Assembly: GCA_004212075.1 (NCBI GenBank)
Contig: RXIF01000002.1
Location: 124,001 to 188,000, forward strand
Origin: Candidatus Methanoliparum thermophilum
Lineage (GTDB): Archaea > Halobacteriota > Methanoliparia > Methanoliparales > Methanoliparaceae
Length of the DNA: 64,000 nt
Direction of reading: 5' to 3'
Shown: piece after piece, positions 53,429-64,000 of the stretch
How positions within the stretch are numbered: position 1 is the stretch's first letter
Layout: every line of letters begins with the position of its first letter
Position numbers and translations under genes: made by a program
The notes under the pieces: model-generated
The model's input: only the letters and a program-made list of their open reading frames with translations
The model's database searches: none
Told to the model about the DNA's origin: nothing

Positions 53429-54472
53429 TTATTTTATAGGATACTTCCCATATTTTTGAGACGCTAAAGCAAGCATCTGTACTTTTTTTAATGGCGTAGA
53501 TACTGGTAGATCACATCCCGAAAACAATATAAATCCACCACCTATTGCAGCCTGTTCTATTGCATCCCTTGCTTCGTTCTCAACATCTTTAGGCGTACCC
53601 ATCAACATAGTTCTTGTCTGGTCTATACCACCAAGCAGGCATACTCTATCTCCGAATCTATATTTTATATCTCTTAAACTATATCTTGTCCCTCTATCCC
53701 ACCAATTAATTCCCTTTACATGAGGATAATCAACTATCATATCTAAAAAAGGCTCTCTACCACACACATGTAGAATTACTGGAAGATTTATCCTGTTTAA
53801 AAGTTTTTCATCCCATCTTTTGGCAATAGTCTCATACTGTTTTCTTGTTAAAAGCTCACCTGTTGCTCTTGTTACGGCTAAAAATATTCCATCAGCACCA
53901 GCATCTTCTAATGCCATCTCTTCAGCTATCAATGATTCAGTAATTGTTTCTAATCCGATAGAAAGCAGATCAGGAGATCTTTTCACCTGTTTTAATACAT
54001 TCATCAAAGGAGCAATGTGCGTTGCTGATGTTATCGGGGAGAACATCACACCTAATATAAAAACCTCTTCCTCAAACCACTCTTTTAGAAGACGGATTGC
54101 CTTAACTATCGTCTTTACACCATCGATAGATTCGGGATCAAAAGGTTCTATCTTTTTCCAATCTTCATCCCTCTTTACAGCATATTCCGATATCACAGGA
54201 GAAGCATCTGCATCCATATATTGTACTCTGCTACCCCATCCTTCTGCTATCATACCAACGTGGGAGAAAGGAAAGAGTATATCAAATCCGCATTTCTCAA
54301 AGAGATAACGTTGGGCTATAGCCATCTTTTCCCCATCGGTAGCATAATCGATCACATTTATTCCAGCAAGTTTTCCTGCAACCTGAGTGGCAAAAGAGCC
54401 AACAGGTACCCTATCTGGCTCTTTTAGATTTAATGCTGTGAGAACTCTCTCTTTTGATGTCATACTATCCAT
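53429..54472 (-). CDS. UroD-type corrinoid methyltransferase (MtaA-like) 1
   Basis: A 347-residue uroporphyrinogen-decarboxylase-fold protein. LNLKEPDRVPVGSFA at the start, VILHVCGREPFLDMI (His and Cys zinc ligands) and FILFSGCDLPVSTP (second Cys) match the HxC...C zinc site of MtaA/MtbA/CmuA methyltransferases, which move methyl groups to or from a corrinoid protein. It overlaps the second UroD gene by 13 bases. Substrate unknown. Confidence 0.82.
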   Translation of the reverse strand: MDSMTSKERVLTALNLKEPDRVPVGSFATQVAGKLAGINVIDYATDGEKMAIAQRYLFEKCGFDILFPFSHVGMIAEGWGSRVQYMDADASPVISEYAVKRDEDWKKIEPFDPESIDGVKTIVKAIRLLKEWFEEEVFILGVMFSPITSATHIAPLMNVLKQVKRSPDLLSIGLETITESLIAEEMALEDAGADGIFLAVTRATGELLTRKQYETIAKRWDEKLLNRINLPVILHVCGREPFLDMIVDYPHVKGINWWDRGTRYSLRDIKYRFGDRVCLLGGIDQTRTMLMGTPKDVENEARDAIEQAAIGGGFILFSGCDLPVSTPLKKVQMLALASQKYGKYPIK

Positions 54473-55521
54473 CCTATTGGATACTTACCGTATCTCTTTG
54501 CTGTTTCCACTGCGGCAAGGATATTTTCAGGAGGTGTGATAGCACTAAGCTCACATCCACCAGATAATATAAATTCGCCATCTATTGCAACCTGTTCTAT
54601 TGCATCTCTTGCTTCGTTCTCAACATCTTTAGGTGTACCCATTATAAGAGTTTTATTTTGATCTAAACCTCCAACCAGGACTACTTTACTATTATATCTC
54701 TCTTTCATATCTCTACCATCTTTTAAACTATATTTTGTCCCTCTGTCCCACCAATTAACTGCTGAGAGTGGATATCTTTCAATTATGGTATCCAACATCG
54801 GATAATTCCCACAAACATGACCTATTACATAATTACTCTTTAAACTTTCTAAGACTTTTAGATCATAGGGAATTCCAAACTCTTTATATTGTTTATCGGT
54901 AAATAAATCTCTGCTAGCTCTAGTGATCGGCATAAAGAATATCTCTGTACCTAAAGAGATTTGTGCATCCACCATATCACGTTCTATATCTGTAATTATG
55001 TTTAATCCTTTATGTAATTCATCAGGATTCTTTCTAGTATCCCTTATCGTCTCTGCCATTCCTCTAATCCAAGTAGCAAGAGTAAGAGGACTAACCACGG
55101 TACCCATAACAGGAACCTCATTATTTGTTTCTTCACGAATGATCAAGGTCGCTTCAAGAGATGCACTTATGCCAGGGGTTATACTTAATTCCAATTTTTC
55201 CCAATCATCAGGTTTTTTTACTACAGTCTCACCTATGGCAGGAGTATCATACATAGTATCGTAATACTTTGTTTTTGTTCCAAACATCTCTGCTACTTCT
55301 GCTATACCTGATCCTGGTATAACTGCATCTACACCGTATCTTCTTAAATAATTTAATTGTCCTTCAGCCATTTTCTTCCCATCGGTAGAATATTCGAACA
55401 TCTTTATACCAGCTTCTCTTGCACCGATCGTCAATGCCCAAAATATTACAGGTACTCTATCAGGAATTTTATGGTTTAGAACAGCGGTCACTCTTTCCAT
55501 AGAACTCATTTCTTCCATCAA
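54460..55521 (-). CDS. UroD-type corrinoid methyltransferase (MtaA-like) 2
   Basis: A 353-residue paralogue of the next gene. LNHKIPDRVPVIFWALTIGA at the start; VIGHVCGNYPMLDTI and FILSGGCELSAITP hold the HxC...C zinc ligands. The stretch LIMGTPKDVENEARDAIEQV is nearly the same as in paralogue 1, also at nucleotide level. It begins seven bases after the corrinoid gene. One paralogue may load and the other unload the corrinoid; which does which cannot be told. Confidence 0.82.
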   Translation of the reverse strand: MMEEMSSMERVTAVLNHKIPDRVPVIFWALTIGAREAGIKMFEYSTDGKKMAEGQLNYLRRYGVDAVIPGSGIAEVAEMFGTKTKYYDTMYDTPAIGETVVKKPDDWEKLELSITPGISASLEATLIIREETNNEVPVMGTVVSPLTLATWIRGMAETIRDTRKNPDELHKGLNIITDIERDMVDAQISLGTEIFFMPITRASRDLFTDKQYKEFGIPYDLKVLESLKSNYVIGHVCGNYPMLDTIIERYPLSAVNWWDRGTKYSLKDGRDMKERYNSKVVLVGGLDQNKTLIMGTPKDVENEARDAIEQVAIDGEFILSGGCELSAITPPENILAAVETAKRYGKYPIGWIV

Positions 55522-55527
55522 ACCACC

Positions 55528-56175
55528 TTATTCTATTTTTAACAATTTTTTTGCAACTATTGTTGCTTCTATAGCATCTTTTCCATATCCATCCGCGCCT
55601 ATCTTATCTGCCCATTCCTGAGATACCGGTGCACCTCCTACAATTACTTTTACTCTATCTCTTATCCCCTCTTTTTTAAGAGCATCTATAACATCCTTCT
55701 GTTTAGGCATACTCGTTGTCATTAAAGCACTCAAACCCAAAATATCCGCATTAACCTCTTTTACTTTCTCTATAAACTTCTCATCAGGTACATCTCCTCC
55801 CATATCCCAACACTCAAATCCTTCTACCTCCATCATTGTTTTGACTAATTCATGCCCCAAAGTATGTATATCGTATTGTACAGTTCCTATAACTAACCTT
55901 CCAACTTTTTTTTCTGATTTTCTTTTAATTTTTGGTTTTATAATATCCATGCTTGCTTGGAAAGCATCGCCTGCAAGAATGAGTTCGGGTAATGCTATAT
56001 CTCTATCTTCATATCTTTTAGATACGATCTTCATACCTTTGTTTAATGCATCTATTATAATATAAGGGTCTATTCCAGTGTTCAATGCTTTTTTTGTTAT
56101 TTCTTTTATTTTTTCATCATCACCGTCTACAATTAATCGTGTTAATTCTTCTAAAATGTTATTTTCTTTAATCAT
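55528..56175 (-). CDS. Corrinoid (B12-binding) methyl-carrier protein
   Basis: A 215-residue MtaC/MtbC/MttC-like protein. Helical cap: about residues 1-85 (GIDPYIIIDALNKGMKIVSK). Rossmann B12 domain: GTVQYDIHTLGHELVKTMME, where DIHTLG is the DxHxxG motif whose histidine ligates cobalt, then LSALMTTSMPKQKDVIDALK and KVIVGGAPVSQEWADKIGAD. It is first in the operon with the two methyltransferases. Confidence 0.92.
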   Translation of the reverse strand: MIKENNILEELTRLIVDGDDEKIKEITKKALNTGIDPYIIIDALNKGMKIVSKRYEDRDIALPELILAGDAFQASMDIIKPKIKRKSEKKVGRLVIGTVQYDIHTLGHELVKTMMEVEGFECWDMGGDVPDEKFIEKVKEVNADILGLSALMTTSMPKQKDVIDALKKEGIRDRVKVIVGGAPVSQEWADKIGADGYGKDAIEATIVAKKLLKIE

Positions 56176-56256: not shown

Positions 56257-56742
56257 ATGTCTGAAAAACAAAATAATGAGATAGATTTTAGTGGCCGCTG
56301 GTGGGAAGAATTACCATGGATGGAAGGATTGCTTGCTAAAGAAGAGCCAACAGCATTTCAAGTACTAAGTGCATTTGTATGTAACGTTATTTTGCAATCC
56401 AAAGATGGTGTAAAAATTGCAGGAGATCTGCCTCCGAGAGTTATATATTTTGTAACGAAGCATCCCAAAAGGGGAGAAGAGAAGTTGATACTGATGTTGA
56501 CACCTCTGGCTATAATTCAAGGAGAACCAAGTGCTGAACCAGATATAGCAATAAATATAGATTATTACGATTTTGTTAGAATGTTAGGAGGAAAAGAAGA
56601 TTTAATGGATATGGTATGGTCAGGGAAGATTGCACTTTCTGGTAACACAATCGTTGGTATGGACCTTAAGGATATTATCGATGCTTCTATGGGACTAATA
56701 CCAACAGGTAGACCAGCTGCATGGACTATTGGTGTCCCTTAA
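56257..56742 (+). CDS. SCP2-like protein 1
   Basis: A 161-residue protein. PDIAINIDYYDFVRMLGGKE followed by DLMDMVWSGKIALSGN is the end of an SCP2 (sterol-carrier) domain, which holds a hydrophobic ligand in a tunnel. The N-terminus has RWWEELPWMEGLLAKEEP. No signal or membrane segment is seen. It diverges from the corrinoid operon, suggesting a related role, perhaps binding a hydrophobic substrate. The family call rests on the pattern. Confidence 0.6.
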   Translation: MSEKQNNEIDFSGRWWEELPWMEGLLAKEEPTAFQVLSAFVCNVILQSKDGVKIAGDLPPRVIYFVTKHPKRGEEKLILMLTPLAIIQGEPSAEPDIAINIDYYDFVRMLGGKEDLMDMVWSGKIALSGNTIVGMDLKDIIDASMGLIPTGRPAAWTIGVP

Positions 56743-56758
56743 TCCATTGTAAAGATCA

Positions 56759-56806
56759 AGAAGAGGTAAGAAGCATTGTGGTTATCTAAGAAGTTTTACC
56801 TCTTCT
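56759..56806 (+). terminator. Hairpin after the SCP2-like gene
   Basis: AGAAGAGGTAA (56759-56769) pairs perfectly with TTACCTCTTCT (56796-56806) around a 26-base loop. It lies 17 bases after the stop codon and could stabilise or end the transcript. There is no long T run directly after it. Confidence 0.4.
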
Positions 56807-56893
56807 GAATGGTCTACATATATATAGGGGATGTTTTGGGTTTTAATCACAATAAGCTTTCTTGATGCATATTAATGATCCGTATAGATTAGA

Positions 56894-57229
56894 ATGAAGG
56901 TTTTATTAGATCTTGATGAAGGAGAAGTGGTAAATCTTGAAATGATTAATGATTTAGCGGAAGATTTGATGCTTAATAATGTAATAGGGATGCTATATCT
57001 CTATGTTAGAATTAAAGAACCTGTATATATCGTGTTATTATACACTACATCGGATGTTGCCACTCAAGATAAGGTAAAGATAAATATATTTGACTTTTTT
57101 TCAAGATTATTACCAGAAGGATTCCGGGTAAGAAAAAGCGTTATTAATAAAAATAATTTTACGATCGTTGCATCGGAAGATCAGCTCAAGGAAGAATGGC
57201 TTAAAAAAGCCCAGGAAATTAAAATTTAA
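56894..57229 (+). CDS. Conserved-looking protein of unknown function
   Basis: A 111-residue protein not recognised. LDLDEGEVVNLEMINDLAED and IGMLYLYVRIKEPVYIVLLY suggest a small alpha/beta fold; the C-terminus EEWLKKAQEIKI is charged. No cysteines and no signal are seen. It lies between the SCP2-like gene and the methanogenesis-marker gene, with which it converges (6-base gap). ATG start. Confidence 0.55.
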   Translation: MKVLLDLDEGEVVNLEMINDLAEDLMLNNVIGMLYLYVRIKEPVYIVLLYTTSDVATQDKVKINIFDFFSRLLPEGFRVRKSVINKNNFTIVASEDQLKEEWLKKAQEIKI

Positions 57230-57235
57230 TTTTTT

Positions 57236-58765
57236 TTACTTTTTTACTTCTATAAAATAGATTATATCTCCCCTTTTTTTATTTTTCAACTGGTTTATAC
57301 CTTTTTTAACCTTTCCAATAATATTTGTTGCTTCCAAATATTCACCTGTTGGACCGTACGTTGTATTTTCAGTAAGTCGTATTCCAATAGTTCCGCTACT
57401 CTTTTGTCTAAAGTTAGTTATACCAATAGTTCCCTTTTCTGATTTATGGCAGACATTTTCGAAAGGAAGAGGCATCTTTTTAACAATAGGACTGTCTAAG
57501 ATTATTTTATCTTTATCTATCTTTGAGATCATAAATTTACCAACGTTAGAAATCATATCAGCCGCACCTCTAAAATAAGATACGCTCTCAGGTGCATCGT
57601 TCTCCCATAACTCTATAAAACATAATTTTTCTGGATTTTCCGCAAGAGTAGTAATAAATCCTAAGGATTTAGCCTCTATCGTCGATCTTGGCCTTTGCTC
57701 TATAATTATGGAATCATCATCTTCTTCTTTAACCATTATATGTTTGATTCCTCTCGATGATAAAAATTCTCTTGCATCCTTATTCGTTTTTCCTACACAA
57801 ATCAGACTTTCTACGTCTCTCAACATAAGAATTTTATCGCCTATATCTGCTTTCTTTATAAGTTCCAATCCACTTTCTACCTCTCCAACGACGCTATGCG
57901 ACCTTGATGCAGGTATATTTTCTCTATATATATATATTCCACCGATTCTTCTTCCTTTATTTCTTACCGTAATCACACCTTTAGTTCTATAGATTGTATT
58001 CTCTTCTTTAAGGGTAGTATTAACTACGTTTTTAGAAGAAGACCCCCCATCGGAGATAAAAGTGGATGCAACATCTCTTACTTCGAATATCTCGTCTTTA
58101 GATAAGAAATATTCAACAGAGTTTGGTGCCTCTTCGAACAGATGTATAGATGCAAAAGTTAAGATAGCATCAGTGTTATCATCTAAGTAAATCGCTCTCG
58201 TTTGATCGATTTTATAGATCTCAATCTCTTTAATTATCGAATTATAACCTTCAATGTTCAAAATAGAATCTTTCTCATCCAATCTTGAAACGACTTTGAT
58301 ACAATCTTCTTTTATTTTTCCAATCTTTTCATATCCTTCTGGTATACCATACAGTCCTTCATGATCGTCCATGCTAAAACAAAGAAAAGAATTTTCTGTT
58401 TTAAATCCTCCAAAACTGATAAATATATCCCCTTTTTTATATTTATACTCGTCTTTTTTTGCTTTTAACTCTAAAAAAGATAGATCTATCGGACCGAAAG
58501 CAATAGAGCTTCTTGTTTTCCAACCACATTTTACCAAAAAATTTTTATAAAATCTCAGCCAGAGATCCAAAAATGATTCATCTATAGCCAGGATAAACTT
58601 TCCTTTAGATGTTTTAACCAAAAACTCATTTGTCTTTTTTTCTATCTTTTTAACAAGAGCAACTATGCAGTCATCTCTATAAATCTCGTTGGATTTCTTT
58701 ATCACATCGAGTATAGATAACCTATCCTCTAAATCTATCTCTTTTAAATTTATCTTTACTTTCAT
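57236..58765 (-). CDS. Methanogenesis marker protein 3-like (UPF0288)
   Basis: A 509-residue protein. KGVITVRNKGRRIGGIYIYR, ASRSHSVVGEVESGLELIKK and IGVR-type C-terminal sequence fit the UPF0288/methanogenesis marker 3 family, which tracks with methyl-coenzyme M reductase in genomes. The latter half resembles a cyclophilin-like fold (SSGTIGIRLTENTTYGPTGE). Function is unknown; a role in MCR maturation or post-translational modification has been supposed for the markers in general. It stands alone on its strand. Confidence 0.78.
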   Translation of the reverse strand: MKVKINLKEIDLEDRLSILDVIKKSNEIYRDDCIVALVKKIEKKTNEFLVKTSKGKFILAIDESFLDLWLRFYKNFLVKCGWKTRSSIAFGPIDLSFLELKAKKDEYKYKKGDIFISFGGFKTENSFLCFSMDDHEGLYGIPEGYEKIGKIKEDCIKVVSRLDEKDSILNIEGYNSIIKEIEIYKIDQTRAIYLDDNTDAILTFASIHLFEEAPNSVEYFLSKDEIFEVRDVASTFISDGGSSSKNVVNTTLKEENTIYRTKGVITVRNKGRRIGGIYIYRENIPASRSHSVVGEVESGLELIKKADIGDKILMLRDVESLICVGKTNKDAREFLSSRGIKHIMVKEEDDDSIIIEQRPRSTIEAKSLGFITTLAENPEKLCFIELWENDAPESVSYFRGAADMISNVGKFMISKIDKDKIILDSPIVKKMPLPFENVCHKSEKGTIGITNFRQKSSGTIGIRLTENTTYGPTGEYLEATNIIGKVKKGINQLKNKKRGDIIYFIEVKK

Positions 58766-59008
58766 ACTATGACGCTACTGATACAATCTCCTCGTTACTT
58801 ACTACCATTCGTGTTCATCACTCTTCATAATAAATTATAGATTTTAATAATAAGCTAAACACCATTACTTTTAGTTTCTGGCAACCGTAATATAGGTGGC
58901 ACAACACCTATAATTGATTTCAGCAAATCATTTAAACCTTTATTTTCGTCTATGTTTGGTCATTATGATTTCTACTATATAAAATTAACCATTATATTGA
59001 TGATCGAA

Positions 59009-59016
59009 AAGTATAA
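59009..59016 (+). promoter_or_regulatory. Possible TATA box of the GlcD-like gene
   Basis: TATAAATA about 30-35 bases before the start codon of the flavin oxidase. The remaining 58766-59043 gap shows no gene and separates two divergent genes. Confidence 0.4.
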
Positions 59017-59043
59017 ATAATGAATGAAACATCCTGATATAAT

Positions 59044-60702
59044 ATGATGAACGAACAAAAAAAATTCTCTAATGATCGTATATTTAAGCTATTATGCGAT
59101 GCGGTTGGAGAGGAGAATGTATCAAATGAGGATGCCATTTTGGCGGCGTATTCACGTGATAATCAATGGCCATTCATTCCTCCTCATTTGCCTGACTATA
59201 TTGTACGACCGATAACAACAGAAGAAGTTCAAAAGGTATTGAGAATTGCAAATAGATATCGTATACCAGTCATTCCAATGAGTAGCGGAATAAACGTCAG
59301 AGGATTATGTATTCCTACATATGGTGGTATTATTCTTGAATTAAAGAGAATGAAAAAATTAGAGATAGATGAAGATATGAGGACAGCAACAGTTCAGCCT
59401 GGTGTTACTATAGCACGATTGGTGGCAGAGTCTGCAAAAAAGGGGTTAAAACCTGCAGTTCCAGGTGCACCTGCCACTGTTTCACCAGTATCTAACTATA
59501 CATTAAGAGGTGTTTATCATCATATCACTTCAGAAGGGATGGATCAAGTATTGAGTGCGACGGTAGTTCTTCCAACAGGAGAGATATTACATACCGGTTC
59601 GAGAGCATTTCCTAAAGCAGATCCGAATTTTAGATATTTTGGACCTGATCTGTTTGGACTTTTTCAAGGGCAACCAGGAACTATGGGTGTAGTAACAGAG
59701 ATGACCGTAAGATTGTTTGAAAAACCTGAAAAGACGGAAGTAATGATGAACTTTTATGGAGATGTTAAAAAGGCGATCCAATTCTCTGATGAAGTGGCCA
59801 AAGCGGGGGTGGCATCTAGTCAAATATTGATGACATGGGGAGTTGGTTTAACAACGTTAGGATTCGTGAAAAGCAAGTTTACAAAAGAAGTTTTTTCGAT
59901 ACTGTTTTCTATGGCACCTTGGATGACACAAACAATAGTTGAAGGTGACGAAGATGCGGTAGAATATAAGAAAAATGTTGTAAACAAGATTGTTAAAAGA
60001 TTGAATATAGATTCAAAAGTTACTTATGATATGGTCCAACGATCGGATTTGCCAGATGGTGTAAAAAAAGTAGCTGGTGTAACTCCCTCTGTCTCGAAAA
60101 ATATTTTTGATATACTCACATCTGAGGAGGTCTTGTCAGAATTAGGCACTGGCAAAGATGAAGTGGCAGATACCGGTATTAATACTGAAAAAATGAGAGA
60201 TACCCTAGGTGTAGGAGAGTTTAGACCGGTTACTCCTGATACTATAGAATATGAATTTAGATATCCTAGAAAGATTGCCCATTGGTTCTCTTTAGGAGAT
60301 TATTGGGCTCTTGCTTGGTGGGGTCCATTAGATAAGGTGGATCTTTATTATGAAAAATCAAAAGACCTCTGGGTAAAATGTGGGTTGGATCCTGTTGATT
60401 TTTCTTTGGTTGCATATCCTGTCTATCCATATTCTGGAAAACCGGCTTATGTAGAGATAGATGCGTGGATGGATTTTGTATCGGATCCTTCATCGATAGA
60501 TAAAGTAAAGATGTTTACAAAAAAGGAGACGGATCTTTTGTTAAATGATGTAGGTATCTATGCATGGTTTAGGCCGTATAGAGATGTAATAAAACAATCG
60601 TTGCCACAGATAAAAGGATATTATATACCATTATGGAAAAAATTAAAAGAATTATTAGATCCAAACAATATAATGAATCCGGGAGCTTTGTTTGATGAAT
60701 AA
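59044..60702 (+). CDS. FAD-linked oxidase, GlcD/VAO family
   Basis: A 552-residue flavoprotein. The FAD-binding domain has IVRPITTEEVQKVLRIANRY, VIPMSSGINVRGLCIPTYGG and ATVQPGVTIARLVAESAKKG, and GLFGLFQGQPGTMGVVTEM-like sequence ends it. The C-terminal substrate domain ends in LLDPNNIMNPGALFD, typical of GlcD, D-lactate dehydrogenase and vanillyl-alcohol oxidase relatives. It oxidises a hydroxyacid, alcohol or similar substrate, here unknown. The SCP2-like gene follows after 20 bases, so they form an operon. Confidence 0.9.
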   Translation: MMNEQKKFSNDRIFKLLCDAVGEENVSNEDAILAAYSRDNQWPFIPPHLPDYIVRPITTEEVQKVLRIANRYRIPVIPMSSGINVRGLCIPTYGGIILELKRMKKLEIDEDMRTATVQPGVTIARLVAESAKKGLKPAVPGAPATVSPVSNYTLRGVYHHITSEGMDQVLSATVVLPTGEILHTGSRAFPKADPNFRYFGPDLFGLFQGQPGTMGVVTEMTVRLFEKPEKTEVMMNFYGDVKKAIQFSDEVAKAGVASSQILMTWGVGLTTLGFVKSKFTKEVFSILFSMAPWMTQTIVEGDEDAVEYKKNVVNKIVKRLNIDSKVTYDMVQRSDLPDGVKKVAGVTPSVSKNIFDILTSEEVLSELGTGKDEVADTGINTEKMRDTLGVGEFRPVTPDTIEYEFRYPRKIAHWFSLGDYWALAWWGPLDKVDLYYEKSKDLWVKCGLDPVDFSLVAYPVYPYSGKPAYVEIDAWMDFVSDPSSIDKVKMFTKKETDLLLNDVGIYAWFRPYRDVIKQSLPQIKGYYIPLWKKLKELLDPNNIMNPGALFDE

Positions 60703-60722
60703 ATAAAAAAGGAGGTATTAAA

Positions 60723-61454
60723 ATGTATAAAGTAGGTTCAGAAGAATGGAATGAGAAGATTAGAGAAATTGCAAAGATAGACATATTGCGTGGAGATTTA
60801 AAAGAGATAGAAAATTTGATGAATTCGATAGAGGTAGACGAGGAAAAAAACGTAATGAGAATAAATGGAGAGGAATACGAGATTCCTAAATATGGTACAC
60901 CAGAGTGGGAACAAGCATACAAGTTAATTCTTGATGAAAGGATCAAACTTCCTAAACCTTATCTATTGGGGCTTCCTGAATGGACTCATGAGTTCGAAAG
61001 GATGATTAATGAGGGGCCTCATTCTGAAGAGTATAAAGATGCTGCAAAAGACTGGGAAGGAGATATAGCTTTACATATACTTCCAGCGCCTGATTTGGGA
61101 TTAGATACGGATCTATACATTTATATGGGACTGTATCATGGGGAAGCCCGGCCTGGTTCTTTAAGACTTGTCTCCAAAGATGATGCTGAAAAAGCGGCAT
61201 ATGTGATTACTGGTACTTATGATCAATGGATAGACGTACAAAGGGGTAAAATAGGTGTTATAAAGGCGTTAATGAAGGGAGATATGACTTTAAAGGGTGA
61301 TTTAAAGAAACTGATGAAGCAGACAAAGCCTGCCAGATTATTGATAGATATGACGGAGGATGTAGGGTCAATTTCTTTTGATGAATTAGATGATGAGAGA
61401 TTCGAGCTTTTCAAGATATTTCTTAATAAGTTCAGACCTATCTTAGGATTTTAA
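60723..61454 (+). CDS. SCP2-like protein 2
   Basis: A 243-residue protein. AAYVITGTYDQWIDVQRGKI then GVIKALMKGDMTLKGDLKKL resembles the C-terminal SCP2 fold. The N-terminal 120 residues are charged and contain YGTPEWEQAYKLILDERI. GGAGG lies 7 bases before the ATG. It is translated right after the flavin oxidase, so it could hold a hydrophobic substrate for it. Confidence 0.65.
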   Translation: MYKVGSEEWNEKIREIAKIDILRGDLKEIENLMNSIEVDEEKNVMRINGEEYEIPKYGTPEWEQAYKLILDERIKLPKPYLLGLPEWTHEFERMINEGPHSEEYKDAAKDWEGDIALHILPAPDLGLDTDLYIYMGLYHGEARPGSLRLVSKDDAEKAAYVITGTYDQWIDVQRGKIGVIKALMKGDMTLKGDLKKLMKQTKPARLLIDMTEDVGSISFDELDDERFELFKIFLNKFRPILGF

Positions 61455-61543
61455 AGTTTTTGACAATCTTAAAATGGAGAAGATTGTTAAAATCTCTTTT
61501 ATTTTATTATTAAAATTTATTTTATTATTAAAAAGAAAAAAGA

Positions 61544-61880
61544 TTAGTCCACCTCCATCTTAAAGAAGGTATATGCGCCTAGCAACAAAAATACTACTGC
61601 CACAGCGATCAAGACAATGATATCGACCCATATTTGAATCCATACCATATACCGAAGACCGAGGCTACTCCGATCGTTATCAATGCTTGTAACATGCCAA
61701 CCGTCAACCCTCCAAAGGTACGTCGGGCTCTGACATAGTACCATCAAAAAGTAGTCATGGTAATGCTAACAACGCTAGAAATAAGACGGGTTGCACTATC
61801 GTACTTATAACTCTGGGTTTCATGTTAAAAAAACGTATGACCTCTCTCAACCACGGCTTTGTAGAAATGCTCTTATTTAG
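61544..61880 (-). pseudogene. Broken ABC-2 type transporter permease
   Basis: Three reverse-strand frames make sense only together: IRFFNMKPRVISTIVQPV (ending LALLALP and a TGA), then RARRTFGGLTVGMLQALITI, then IIVLIAVAVVFLLLGAYTFF to the stop at 61544. These are the N-terminus, the middle and the last helix of an ABC-2 exporter permease. A large internal deletion and frameshifts make it nonfunctional. No partner ATPase is nearby. Confidence 0.65.
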
Positions 61881-62011
61881 ACAAGATTGGGATACGGTTT
61901 AGGAATACTTAAGGAGCGGTATACTATAAGAGACTGTCAAGTTAAGAATATAGATTATTATCAGTTATATTGATGTGCTTATCTTGACAGTTTCTTGTAT
62001 CGAAACGTTAA

Positions 62012-62019
62012 TTATATAT
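62012..62019 (+). promoter_or_regulatory. Possible TATA box of the HdrD/GlcF-like gene
   Basis: TTATATAT centred about 28 bases before the preferred ATG at 62044; a leaderless or very short-leader mRNA is likely. Confidence 0.4.
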
Positions 62020-62043
62020 GTGAGAAAAATATGCCTTTTTATT

Positions 62044-63249
62044 ATGGAAATAAATTATAAAAAACCTGTAGAAAAATGGGGAGAAGTGATATACGATTGC
62101 GGACATTGCCGTATATGTTCACTTGCGGATTACCATAAGATAGGAGAAGCATTAACTATATGTCCAAGTGGTGAATATTTTGGATTTGAGGCATATTATC
62201 CACCTGGTAGAAATGAATTGGTAAGAGGGATAATAGAAGGATCCGTTAAGCCATCGAATAAAGCTTTAGAGGTAGCTTTTGCTTGCCAAGTTTGTAACGG
62301 ATGTAATGCAATGTGTAAACCACATACATATTTTGGTTTTTCTATAAAGGATCATTCTGCTTTGTACGAAGATTTACGAGAGGCACTTGTGTTAGCAGGT
62401 TATATCCCAGAAAAACATTTAGAATTTGGAGAATGGATAGAAAAAGATCATAATCCTTATTTTGAGACACACGAATCAAGGTTTGATTGGTTAGAAGAAG
62501 GACTGACAAGAAAAGATGCAGAAGTTTTATATTTTACTGGATGCACATCATCGTATAGGCAAAAAAATATTGCAAAAGCGACTGTTAATGCTTTAAATAA
62601 AGCAGGTGTATCGTTTGATGTTTTAAGGGAGGAAGAATGGTGCTGTGGATCTCCTTTACTGAGAACAGGACAGAGAGAAAAAGCTATAGAAGTTGCGAGA
62701 CATAATGTTGAGGCAATAAAGAAGAGAGGAATAAAGACTGTTGTTACTTCATGTGCAGGTTGTTATCGTACGTTGAAAGTCGATTATCCTATTTTATTAG
62801 GAAAGAGAAGCGTAAAGTTCGATGTTATACATACTTCTCAACTTTTTGTTTCTATGCTTGATGAGAAAAAAGTAAGTTTGGAAAATATGGGTTTAGATGT
62901 AACTTATCACGATCCTTGCCATCTTGGAAGACATATGGAAGTTTACGATAAAGCTGTATATGAAGAACCAAGAGATGTTTTAGGTCTTATAGCAAATATA
63001 CACGAGATGCCGAGAAACAGAGAAAACGCATGGTGTTGTGGATCTGGGGGTGGAGTGAAGTCTGCTTTTCCGGATTTTGCACTATGGACTGCTAATGAAA
63101 GGTTAAAAGAAGTAGAAAGCGTGGGTGTCGATACGGTAGTTACTGCCTGTCCTTTCTGTGTCCGTAATTTAGGAGATGCTAATGAGGTGTTTAATAAAAA
63201 ATTAAAGGTTGTAGACCTTATAGAGCTTGTCGAAAAGACGCTAAAGTGA
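62044..63249 (+). CDS. HdrD/GlcF-type iron-sulfur oxidoreductase
   Basis: A 401-residue protein. The N-terminus holds two cysteine groups (CGHCRICSL plus a later CPSG, and CQVCNGCNAMCKPH) for 4Fe-4S clusters. Two CCG domains follow: EEWCCGSPLLRTGQ with TSCAGCYRTLK, and NAWCCGSGGGVKSAFPD with TACPFCVRNLG. These bind the noncubane cluster of heterodisulfide reductase subunit D or the GlcF partner of GlcD. I chose ATG 62044; the longer frame from 61975 adds unlikely sequence upstream of the promoter. It probably passes electrons from the GlcD-like oxidase. Confidence 0.88.
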   Translation: MEINYKKPVEKWGEVIYDCGHCRICSLADYHKIGEALTICPSGEYFGFEAYYPPGRNELVRGIIEGSVKPSNKALEVAFACQVCNGCNAMCKPHTYFGFSIKDHSALYEDLREALVLAGYIPEKHLEFGEWIEKDHNPYFETHESRFDWLEEGLTRKDAEVLYFTGCTSSYRQKNIAKATVNALNKAGVSFDVLREEEWCCGSPLLRTGQREKAIEVARHNVEAIKKRGIKTVVTSCAGCYRTLKVDYPILLGKRSVKFDVIHTSQLFVSMLDEKKVSLENMGLDVTYHDPCHLGRHMEVYDKAVYEEPRDVLGLIANIHEMPRNRENAWCCGSGGGVKSAFPDFALWTANERLKEVESVGVDTVVTACPFCVRNLGDANEVFNKKLKVVDLIELVEKTLK

Positions 63250-63263
63250 GAAAGAACAATTAT

Positions 63264-63291
63264 CCTCTTTATTTTTTTAAAAAAAAAGAGG
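63264..63291 (+). promoter_or_regulatory. AT-rich hairpin covering a ribosome site
   Basis: CCTCTTTATTTTTT and the following A-run ending AAGAGG can fold into a long hairpin. Its right end, GAGG, is the core of the ribosome site for the TTG start at 63300, so the hairpin could block translation or act as a terminator of the gene before. Confidence 0.4.
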
Positions 63292-63299
63292 TAGATATA

Positions 63300-64000
63300 T
63301 TGGCAGAAAAGATCAAAGAAATAGGAGAGAAAGCTATTAAAGCGGATGTAGAAGAACTAAAGAAGATATTTCCTGATCTATTAGATACTATAAAAGACGC
63401 CGAAGTATCAGATTATATAAAAGTCCTTAAAGAATCTCCAGATCTTATAATAAGAGGAATACCTAAAGCAGGAGAGTTTATAAACAAAAGTAAACCGGAC
63501 GATGCACTTCCAGTCATAAGGGAGACGTTACCTCTTATATTTGACAAGGTTCAAAAGTACGGACTTGAGAAGTTTCTAACAGAAGTTCCCGATCTTGCAA
63601 AGATGATACCTGATATTTTCAGTAGTATGCAAAAACTTATGAAAGAGATTAATCCAGATAAACTAACAGAATTTGGACGAGATTTTGAAGATATCATGAA
63701 AAGCTTTTTCCCTTTAGTAAACGAAGGTTTTCCTATTGTTAAAAAGATTAACAAAGATATCGATGATATGTTTAATAAAATAAAAAGTGCAAAAGTAACA
63801 ACCGGTGTTAATCTGATAGATATGGGATGGGGATTCAGAATAAATTGGAATAATGGTGAGATAACACTCGATTCAAATACAGAATCTGATTTAACGTTAG
63901 AACTTCCTACTAAATCGTTATTTGATATGTTTGAGATAATGACAAGCGGTAGTTTATCTGCAGCACTGAAAGCGTTCACTACCGGAAAAATAAAGATAAA
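63300..64000 (+). CDS. SCP2-like protein 3, cut by window edge
   Basis: The frame is open from a TTG at 63300-63302, with AGAGGTAG upstream, to the window end (about 233 codons). LAEKIKEIGEKAIKADVEEL and following residues up to about 160 look helical; after that MGWGFRINWNNGEITLDSNT then LTLELPTKSLFDMFEIMTSG with SLSAALKAFTTGKIKI form an SCP2-like domain, the third in this region. The C-terminus lies outside the window. Confidence 0.65.
   Translation, partial: MAEKIKEIGEKAIKADVEELKKIFPDLLDTIKDAEVSDYIKVLKESPDLIIRGIPKAGEFINKSKPDDALPVIRETLPLIFDKVQKYGLEKFLTEVPDLAKMIPDIFSSMQKLMKEINPDKLTEFGRDFEDIMKSFFPLVNEGFPIVKKINKDIDDMFNKIKSAKVTTGVNLIDMGWGFRINWNNGEITLDSNTESDLTLELPTKSLFDMFEIMTSGSLSAALKAFTTGKIKI

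Follow-up and report, generated by a model that had tools for sequence, protein, structure and literature searches.

The region at positions 56257..64000 of the DNA stretch analysed here (64,000 nucleotides of contig RXIF01000002.1 of Candidatus Methanoliparum thermophilum; hereafter, the window) is an accessory island of alkyl-coenzyme M (alkyl-CoM) reductase (ACR) genes. Its first gene encodes SCP2a, a member of a family of SCP2-fold proteins that is conserved in acr operons and apparently new to the literature. The preferred reading, which is held tentatively, is that the SCP2 carriers of this island, together with a module of a flavoprotein and an HdrD-like iron-sulfur protein, process alkyl-CoM, the product of ACR. 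Methanoliparia form methane from alkanes by means of both ACR and MCR (PMC6703427, PMC10811742). The window genome (1.26 Mb) encodes one canonical McrA and one divergent, ACR-type McrA; we infer that it is a Ca. Methanoliparum-like genome and that Methanolliviera is the sister genus within the same family. The Methanolliviera genomes used for comparison were G004 (CABGHG010000031.1, Ca. Methanolliviera sp. GoM_oil) and G002 (RXIL01000175.1, Ca. Methanolliviera hydrocarbonicum).

An SCP2 family of ACR operons

The SCP2a gene (161 aa; 56257..56742, forward strand; PF02036 at 28.6-28.8 bits) was traced with a profile built from seven copies, namely the window copy and six acr-linked copies (alignment A2/A4). 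The survey covered 394 genomes of the phylum, and the ACR lineages of Hadarchaeota, Bathyarchaeia and Helarchaeales lie outside it. The family was detected in 10 of the 11 ACR genomes and in none of the 383 others (Fisher p ~5e-19, counting G296 as an ACR genome); this p value overstates the association, since the genomes share ancestry and ACR loci supplied the seed sequences of the profile. The ACR genome G117, which is 86% complete, gave no match in the profile search. The window genome was matched at 206.6 bits (E 1.8e-61), with the window copy being one of the seven rows of the model. Nine of the ten SCP2a genomes carry an ACR-type acrA; in the remaining one, G296, SCP2a is directly preceded by acrB and acrG of the ACR type. 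G296 is a fragmented genome of family f5 whose acrB-acrG-SCP2a contig (L253, G296:C207) is close to a contig of family f24, and contamination or transfer is possible.

The SCP2a gene was located 5-145 bp after acrA (f1, f15, f31, f34) or after acrG (f24, f28, G296), in up to seven GTDB families. The Methanolliviera ortholog (59% identity) directly follows acrA. In the window genome itself SCP2a does not directly follow acrA or acrG; acrBGA lies on contig 9, and SCP2a and the accessory genes on contig 3. SCP2a was not adjacent to the canonical mcr operons examined (L090, L216), and in G155 both operons are found on one contig. The acrA and SCP2a distances were correlated (r=0.85, permutation p=4e-4), which fits co-inheritance. 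A reading of f15 as an ethyl-CoM reductase carrier was rejected.

The AlphaFold2 model of SCP2a (pLDDT 85.6, from 11 sequences) has the SCP2 fold and matched 6ovp in Foldseek at 1.2e-7. All Foldseek matches with E<=0.001 were SCP2 proteins or alkylsulfatase-type proteins bearing that domain, among them solved alkylsulfatase complexes with 1-decanesulfonate (including 2cfu) and with dodecanol, and weak Alkyl_sulf_C Pfam matches were also obtained. SCP2a is predicted to share its fold with the SCP2 proteins and with the C-terminal domain of SdsA1-type alkylsulfatases (PF02036, PF14864), in which the binding of hydrophobic chains is known; the SdsA1 structures 2cfu and 2cfz hold decanesulfonate or dodecanol. 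Unlike those domains, SCP2a stands alone, is encoded in ACR operons and carries its own invariant motif, HPxRGxE, and most of the remote copies tested score under the Pfam SCP2 cut-off. Alkyl-CoM (R-S-CH2CH2-SO3-, an alkylthioethanesulfonate) is an alkyl sulfonate amphiphile and detergent-like, so the likeness to the alkylsulfatase domain is chemically suggestive. We infer that SCP2a carries alkyl-CoM or the alkane, and the carriage of alkyl-CoM or its products by SCP2 is fairly likely. A search of the open-access literature returned no mention of SCP2 or a sterol carrier protein together with alkyl-CoM or coenzyme M reductase, and an earlier mention elsewhere is possible.

The accessory island and its Methanolliviera counterpart

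The genes of the island follow the order SCP2a, Mmp17, Mmp3, flavoprotein, SCP2b, HdrD-like protein and SCP2c, and A2, Mmp7, McrD and McrC lie just past the window end. The homolog of Mmp17, a protein of the MCR/ACR activation complex, is short (56894..57229, forward strand; PF09886 at 72.9 bits), with 111 aa against a profile of 183-185 positions, and its 62 bits fall under the 67.1 cut-off of TIGR03291. The Methanolliviera copies are equally short, which points to a short form and not a broken gene. The ACR-type mmp3 (57236..58765, reverse strand; TIGR03268 at 336 bits) is the second copy in the genome, and this second copy is limited to the family members that also carry ACR. A second, ACR-type set of the MCR activation complex (McrC, Mmp3, Mmp7, Mmp17, A2) flanks the module, whereas SCP2a, the flavoprotein and the HdrD-like protein are not among the known components of that complex. 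An earlier note, made from the window sequence, had assumed a lipid-like or alkyl substrate for the module, and the ACR linkage of the module genes agrees with this setting.

The same note had described three SCP2-like proteins within 8 kb, one right after a flavin oxidase and one right after an iron-sulfur protein, and both descriptions were borne out. SCP2a, SCP2b (243 aa, an SCP2 domain with an N-terminal extension; 60723..61454, forward strand; PF02036 at 32.4-33.8 bits) and SCP2c (274 aa, SCP2 domain at the C-terminus; 63246..64000, forward strand, with the open reading frame (ORF) running to 64070 beyond the window; PF02036 at 23.1-23.7 bits at full length) all pass the PF02036 gathering cut-off of 21.3 bits. 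SCP2c does so once its ORF is extended past the window end; the portion inside the window alone gave no Pfam match. SCP2b begins 20 bp after the flavoprotein gene, and SCP2c, if it starts with the GTG at 63246, shares 4 bp with the HdrD-like gene. Seven Pfam-detectable SCP2 domains were found in the genome, and the chance of three of them falling inside 7.7 kb is p ~0.004 under random placement. SCP2b and SCP2c are SCP2-like by sequence, with SCP2b matching 2cx7 ('Sterol carrier protein 2') at 5e-13 in a PDB profile search. The full-length form of SCP2b was found only in the three ACR-bearing family members among the 394 genomes.

The gene neighbourhood was partly kept in Methanolliviera. One contig has the order acrB-acrG-acrA-SCP2a-V4R protein-mmp17-mmp3-mmp8-SCP2c-like-SCP2b, a second has the C-terminus of the flavoprotein adjoining SCP2b, and the HdrD orthologs (66-67% identity) adjoin A2-mmp7-mcrD-mcrC on a contig other than that of acrBGA. 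The position of SCP2c beside HdrD was not kept in relatives; its orthologs (53%) adjoin TRM1 or chaperonin genes, and SCP2c was rejected as a conserved HdrD partner. In genomes G001 and G003 ACR was not found, and SCP2a, SCP2b and the flavoprotein ortholog were likewise not found. Taken alone, their joint absence is a weak argument because both genomes are incomplete (84% and 91% complete) and the genes are linked.

Other SCP2 genes adjoin enzymes of alkyl-chain metabolism, which supports a carrier role. In three family genomes SCP2d is adjacent or close to AOR and a ferredoxin, and in three it adjoins the non-Pfam protein X577; SCP2e follows an NDP-forming acyl-CoA synthetase in the window genome. 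For family f5 (L258-L274), an SCP2 gene of 135-158 aa adjoins an iron-containing alcohol dehydrogenase (Fe-ADH) in 16 of the 17 loci. The SCP2/Fe-ADH pairing was also observed in G001:C35 and G002:C4, and a Methanolliviera gene (L073:1603-2709) fuses an NADPH-dependent FMN reductase domain to an SCP2 domain.

The genes preceding SCP2a, all on the reverse strand, encode a corrinoid protein (55528..56175; TIGR02370 at 217 bits) and two MtaA/UroD-family methyltransferases (53429..55521; PF01208). It had been suggested that these corrinoid methyltransferases share the substrate of the module; this membership was not supported and was rejected, as they are not conserved in Methanolliviera, where the neighbours of SCP2a are the V4R protein and, at its opposite end, acrBGA, and genes for tRNA synthetases lie further out. 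Near the window genome's acrA, the second gene after it (L011:6326-7162) encodes a reductive-dehalogenase/QueG-like 4Fe-4S protein, and a RamA/AcsV-type corrinoid activator is located ~4 kb beyond that gene.

The flavoprotein and its HdrD-like partner

The flavoprotein (552 aa; 59044..60702, forward strand) had been named a GlcD-type oxidase. A PCMH-type FAD-binding domain is indeed present (PF01565 at 92 bits), but the name proved too narrow. The hydroxyacid metal motif HxGDGNxH is absent from the window protein and from the whole HdrD-paired clade, whereas most other homologs in the phylum have it, and the curated GlcD model TIGR00387 gave only 110 of 568 bits; glycolate or lactate oxidation was rejected on these two grounds. 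The best full-length PDB match of the clade profile was p-cresol methylhydroxylase (1dii, 1.9e-48), with D-lactate dehydrogenase close behind, and the Foldseek search with the predicted model ranked 1dii first (TM 0.68-0.73), followed closely by D-lactate dehydrogenases. Judged from its sequence, the flavoprotein is a VAO/PCMH-like enzyme and not a hydroxyacid dehydrogenase. It matches the p-cresol methylhydroxylase/vanillyl-alcohol oxidase family best in full-length profile and fold, yet identity is 18% and the partner here is HdrD-like, where it is cytochrome c or O2 in that family.

An insertion of ~80 residues, absent from paralogs, distinguishes the flavoprotein. Its nearest relatives outside the family were found in the ACR genomes G117 and G218, in GlcD-HdrD-orf-AOR clusters; scans of genome contigs with the flavoprotein, and of viral contigs, returned no relatives. 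Two loci of distantly related ACR genomes (L215:7021-12518, L216:14721-19901) each hold a flavoprotein, an HdrD, a non-Pfam protein of 216-228 aa and an AOR. The idea that this non-Pfam protein is a hidden SCP2 had neither alignment nor Pfam support.

The partner protein (62044..63249, forward strand; PF02754 at 124 bits) carries, in a motif scan, a pair of 4Fe-4S motifs along with two CCG motifs (C-x-CC-x-CxxC), both complete, in keeping with the HdrD-like protein first described. No equivalog cut-off was reached, the best NCBIfam match being TfrB with 216 of 385 bits, and the protein is therefore classed as HdrD-like. No HdrE-like partner was recognised among the flanking ORFs examined. Pairs of hdrD and glcD are known and have been interpreted as thiol-cycling complexes (PMC6474303, PMC6783470). 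The pairs of Verstraetearchaeota, Polytropus and Bathyarchaeia resemble the window pair in that a flavoprotein adjoins an HdrD-like protein; they differ in that the window pair lies near SCP2 and ACR-type genes and its flavoprotein has the insertion and lacks the metal motif.

A possible route for alkyl-CoM and its rivals

According to the preferred reading, SCP2a would bind the hydrophobic substrate of ACR or, more likely, its product alkyl-CoM and hand it on, and SCP2b would render the same service to the flavoprotein; both steps are fairly likely. Other SCP2 proteins of the Methanoliparum family seem to serve AOR, Fe-ADH and acyl-CoA ligases likewise. The subsequent chemistry is speculative. 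The substrate may be alkyl-CoM or an alcohol or aldehyde derived from it. The flavoprotein might abstract a hydride at the alkyl carbon that adjoins the sulfur, water would add, and the thiohemiacetal would break down to an aldehyde and HS-CoM, as with prenylcysteine oxidase. The HdrD-like partner could then take up the electrons and deliver them to CoM-S-S-CoB from the methanogenic MCR, and AOR and a CoA ligase could yield acyl-CoA for beta-oxidation. Prenylcysteine oxidase belongs to a different flavoprotein family from the window protein, is O2-dependent and is invoked as a functional analogue only, with no homology claimed. It sets the precedent for thioether oxidation, in which FAD abstracts a hydride from a lipid thioether to give an aldehyde and a thiol (PMC11530802). 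By this analogy, thioether oxidation by the flavoprotein is a testable guess. In its most specific form, in which the flavoprotein-HdrD pair and SCP2 would be the missing alkyl-CoM dehydrogenase, an anaerobic, flavin-dependent thioether oxidase that converts long-chain alkyl-CoM to aldehyde and CoM with heterodisulfide as acceptor and is fed by an ACR-dedicated SCP2, the proposal is unlikely.

Several observations weigh against the preferred reading. The flavoprotein was modelled with only moderate confidence (pLDDT 74.6), and SCP2c has no link to HdrD outside the window genome. Some ACR genomes (G146, G081) lack the flavoprotein-HdrD pair or have only a distant version of it, and relatives of the pair also occur in f6, a family without ACR that is probably ANME-1, so that alkyl-CoM cannot be the sole business of the wider clade. 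Activation genes occupy the same island, and the linkage may have to do with ACR maturation and not with substrate handling. Finally, X430, another conserved acr-operon protein, is at least as good a candidate for the enzyme that processes alkyl-CoM.

The X430 family (alignment A8; 375-450 aa) has no Pfam or NCBIfam match. Apart from G296, all the non-Methanoliparia ACR genomes tested have it next to acr genes, and in G302 a single contig holds as many as three copies. Members were located at L220:3229-4530, L228:5833-6957, L226:4956-6098, L225:1064-2242 and L227:11447-12601, and distant homologs at L091:4463-6196 and L081:8263-9855; the distant homolog of 577 aa (X577) lies beside SCP2d or AOR in Methanoliparia. 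A partner of 120-180 aa accompanies X430 in several cases. For the alkyl-CoM step, X430 is a candidate in place of the flavoprotein.

Among the rival explanations, the least improbable is that the flavoprotein and its HdrD-like partner act as a CoM-SH/CoB-SH : heterodisulfide oxidoreductase whose sole task is to balance the thiol cofactors for ACR and MCR, with the SCP2 genes unrelated or serving ACR only. Both CCG motifs of the HdrD-like protein, the presence of relatives of the pair in non-ACR archaea and the like role proposed for the hdrD-glcD pairs of other Mcr archaea (PMC6474303, PMC6783470) speak for it, but it leaves without explanation the SCP2 gene that follows the flavoprotein by 20 bp and is kept in Methanolliviera, the PCMH-like character of the flavoprotein, and the AOR/ALDH genes beside related pairs.

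Two further explanations are unlikely to a similar degree. The flavoprotein might oxidise a free long-chain or lipophilic alcohol, delivered by SCP2, to the aldehyde after alkyl-CoM has been cleaved, for example by X430 or a corrinoid alkyltransferase. VAO-family chemistry, the SCP2/Fe-ADH pairing in f5, the alcohol intermediates proposed by Laso-Perez 2019 and the location of X430/X577 next to acrA or next to SCP2d and AOR are consistent with this; Fe-ADH is, however, already available for the alcohol step, and free alcohols are without direct evidence. Alternatively, SCP2a might be an ACR assembly or activation factor that has the SCP2 fold without carrying substrate and is positioned like McrC/McrD, which is compatible with any reading of the flavoprotein. 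The close association of SCP2a with acr subunits and mmp3 in the operons of f28 and f31, and its invariant motif, would suit such a factor, whereas SCP2 folds bind lipid in every characterised case known to us, SCP2a resembles the alkylsulfatase domain, and canonical MCRs do without it. That the module supplies electrons for the ATP-dependent reduction of Ni(II) to Ni(I) by which ACR is activated, with the adjacent Mmp3, Mmp17, Mmp7, A2 and McrC, is improbable: in two genera its genes alternate with those of the ACR-type activation complex, but the redox potentials of flavin and heterodisulfide-type clusters are too high to generate Ni(I), and the f28 and f31 acr loci examined have Mmp3 and Mmp7 with no adjacent module.

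The route from alkyl-CoM to acyl-CoA in alkane-degrading archaea has been stated as unknown (PMC10322722, PMC10811742). The presence of SCP2a and the flavoprotein-HdrD-SCP2 module in one ACR island provides specific proteins and substrates for this question. If the preferred reading is true, carriage by SCP2 would account for the cellular handling of a detergent-like intermediate. The recurrence of SCP2a in the ACR operons of distant archaea makes it a concrete candidate carrier for the hydrophobic intermediate in the breakdown of long oil hydrocarbons.

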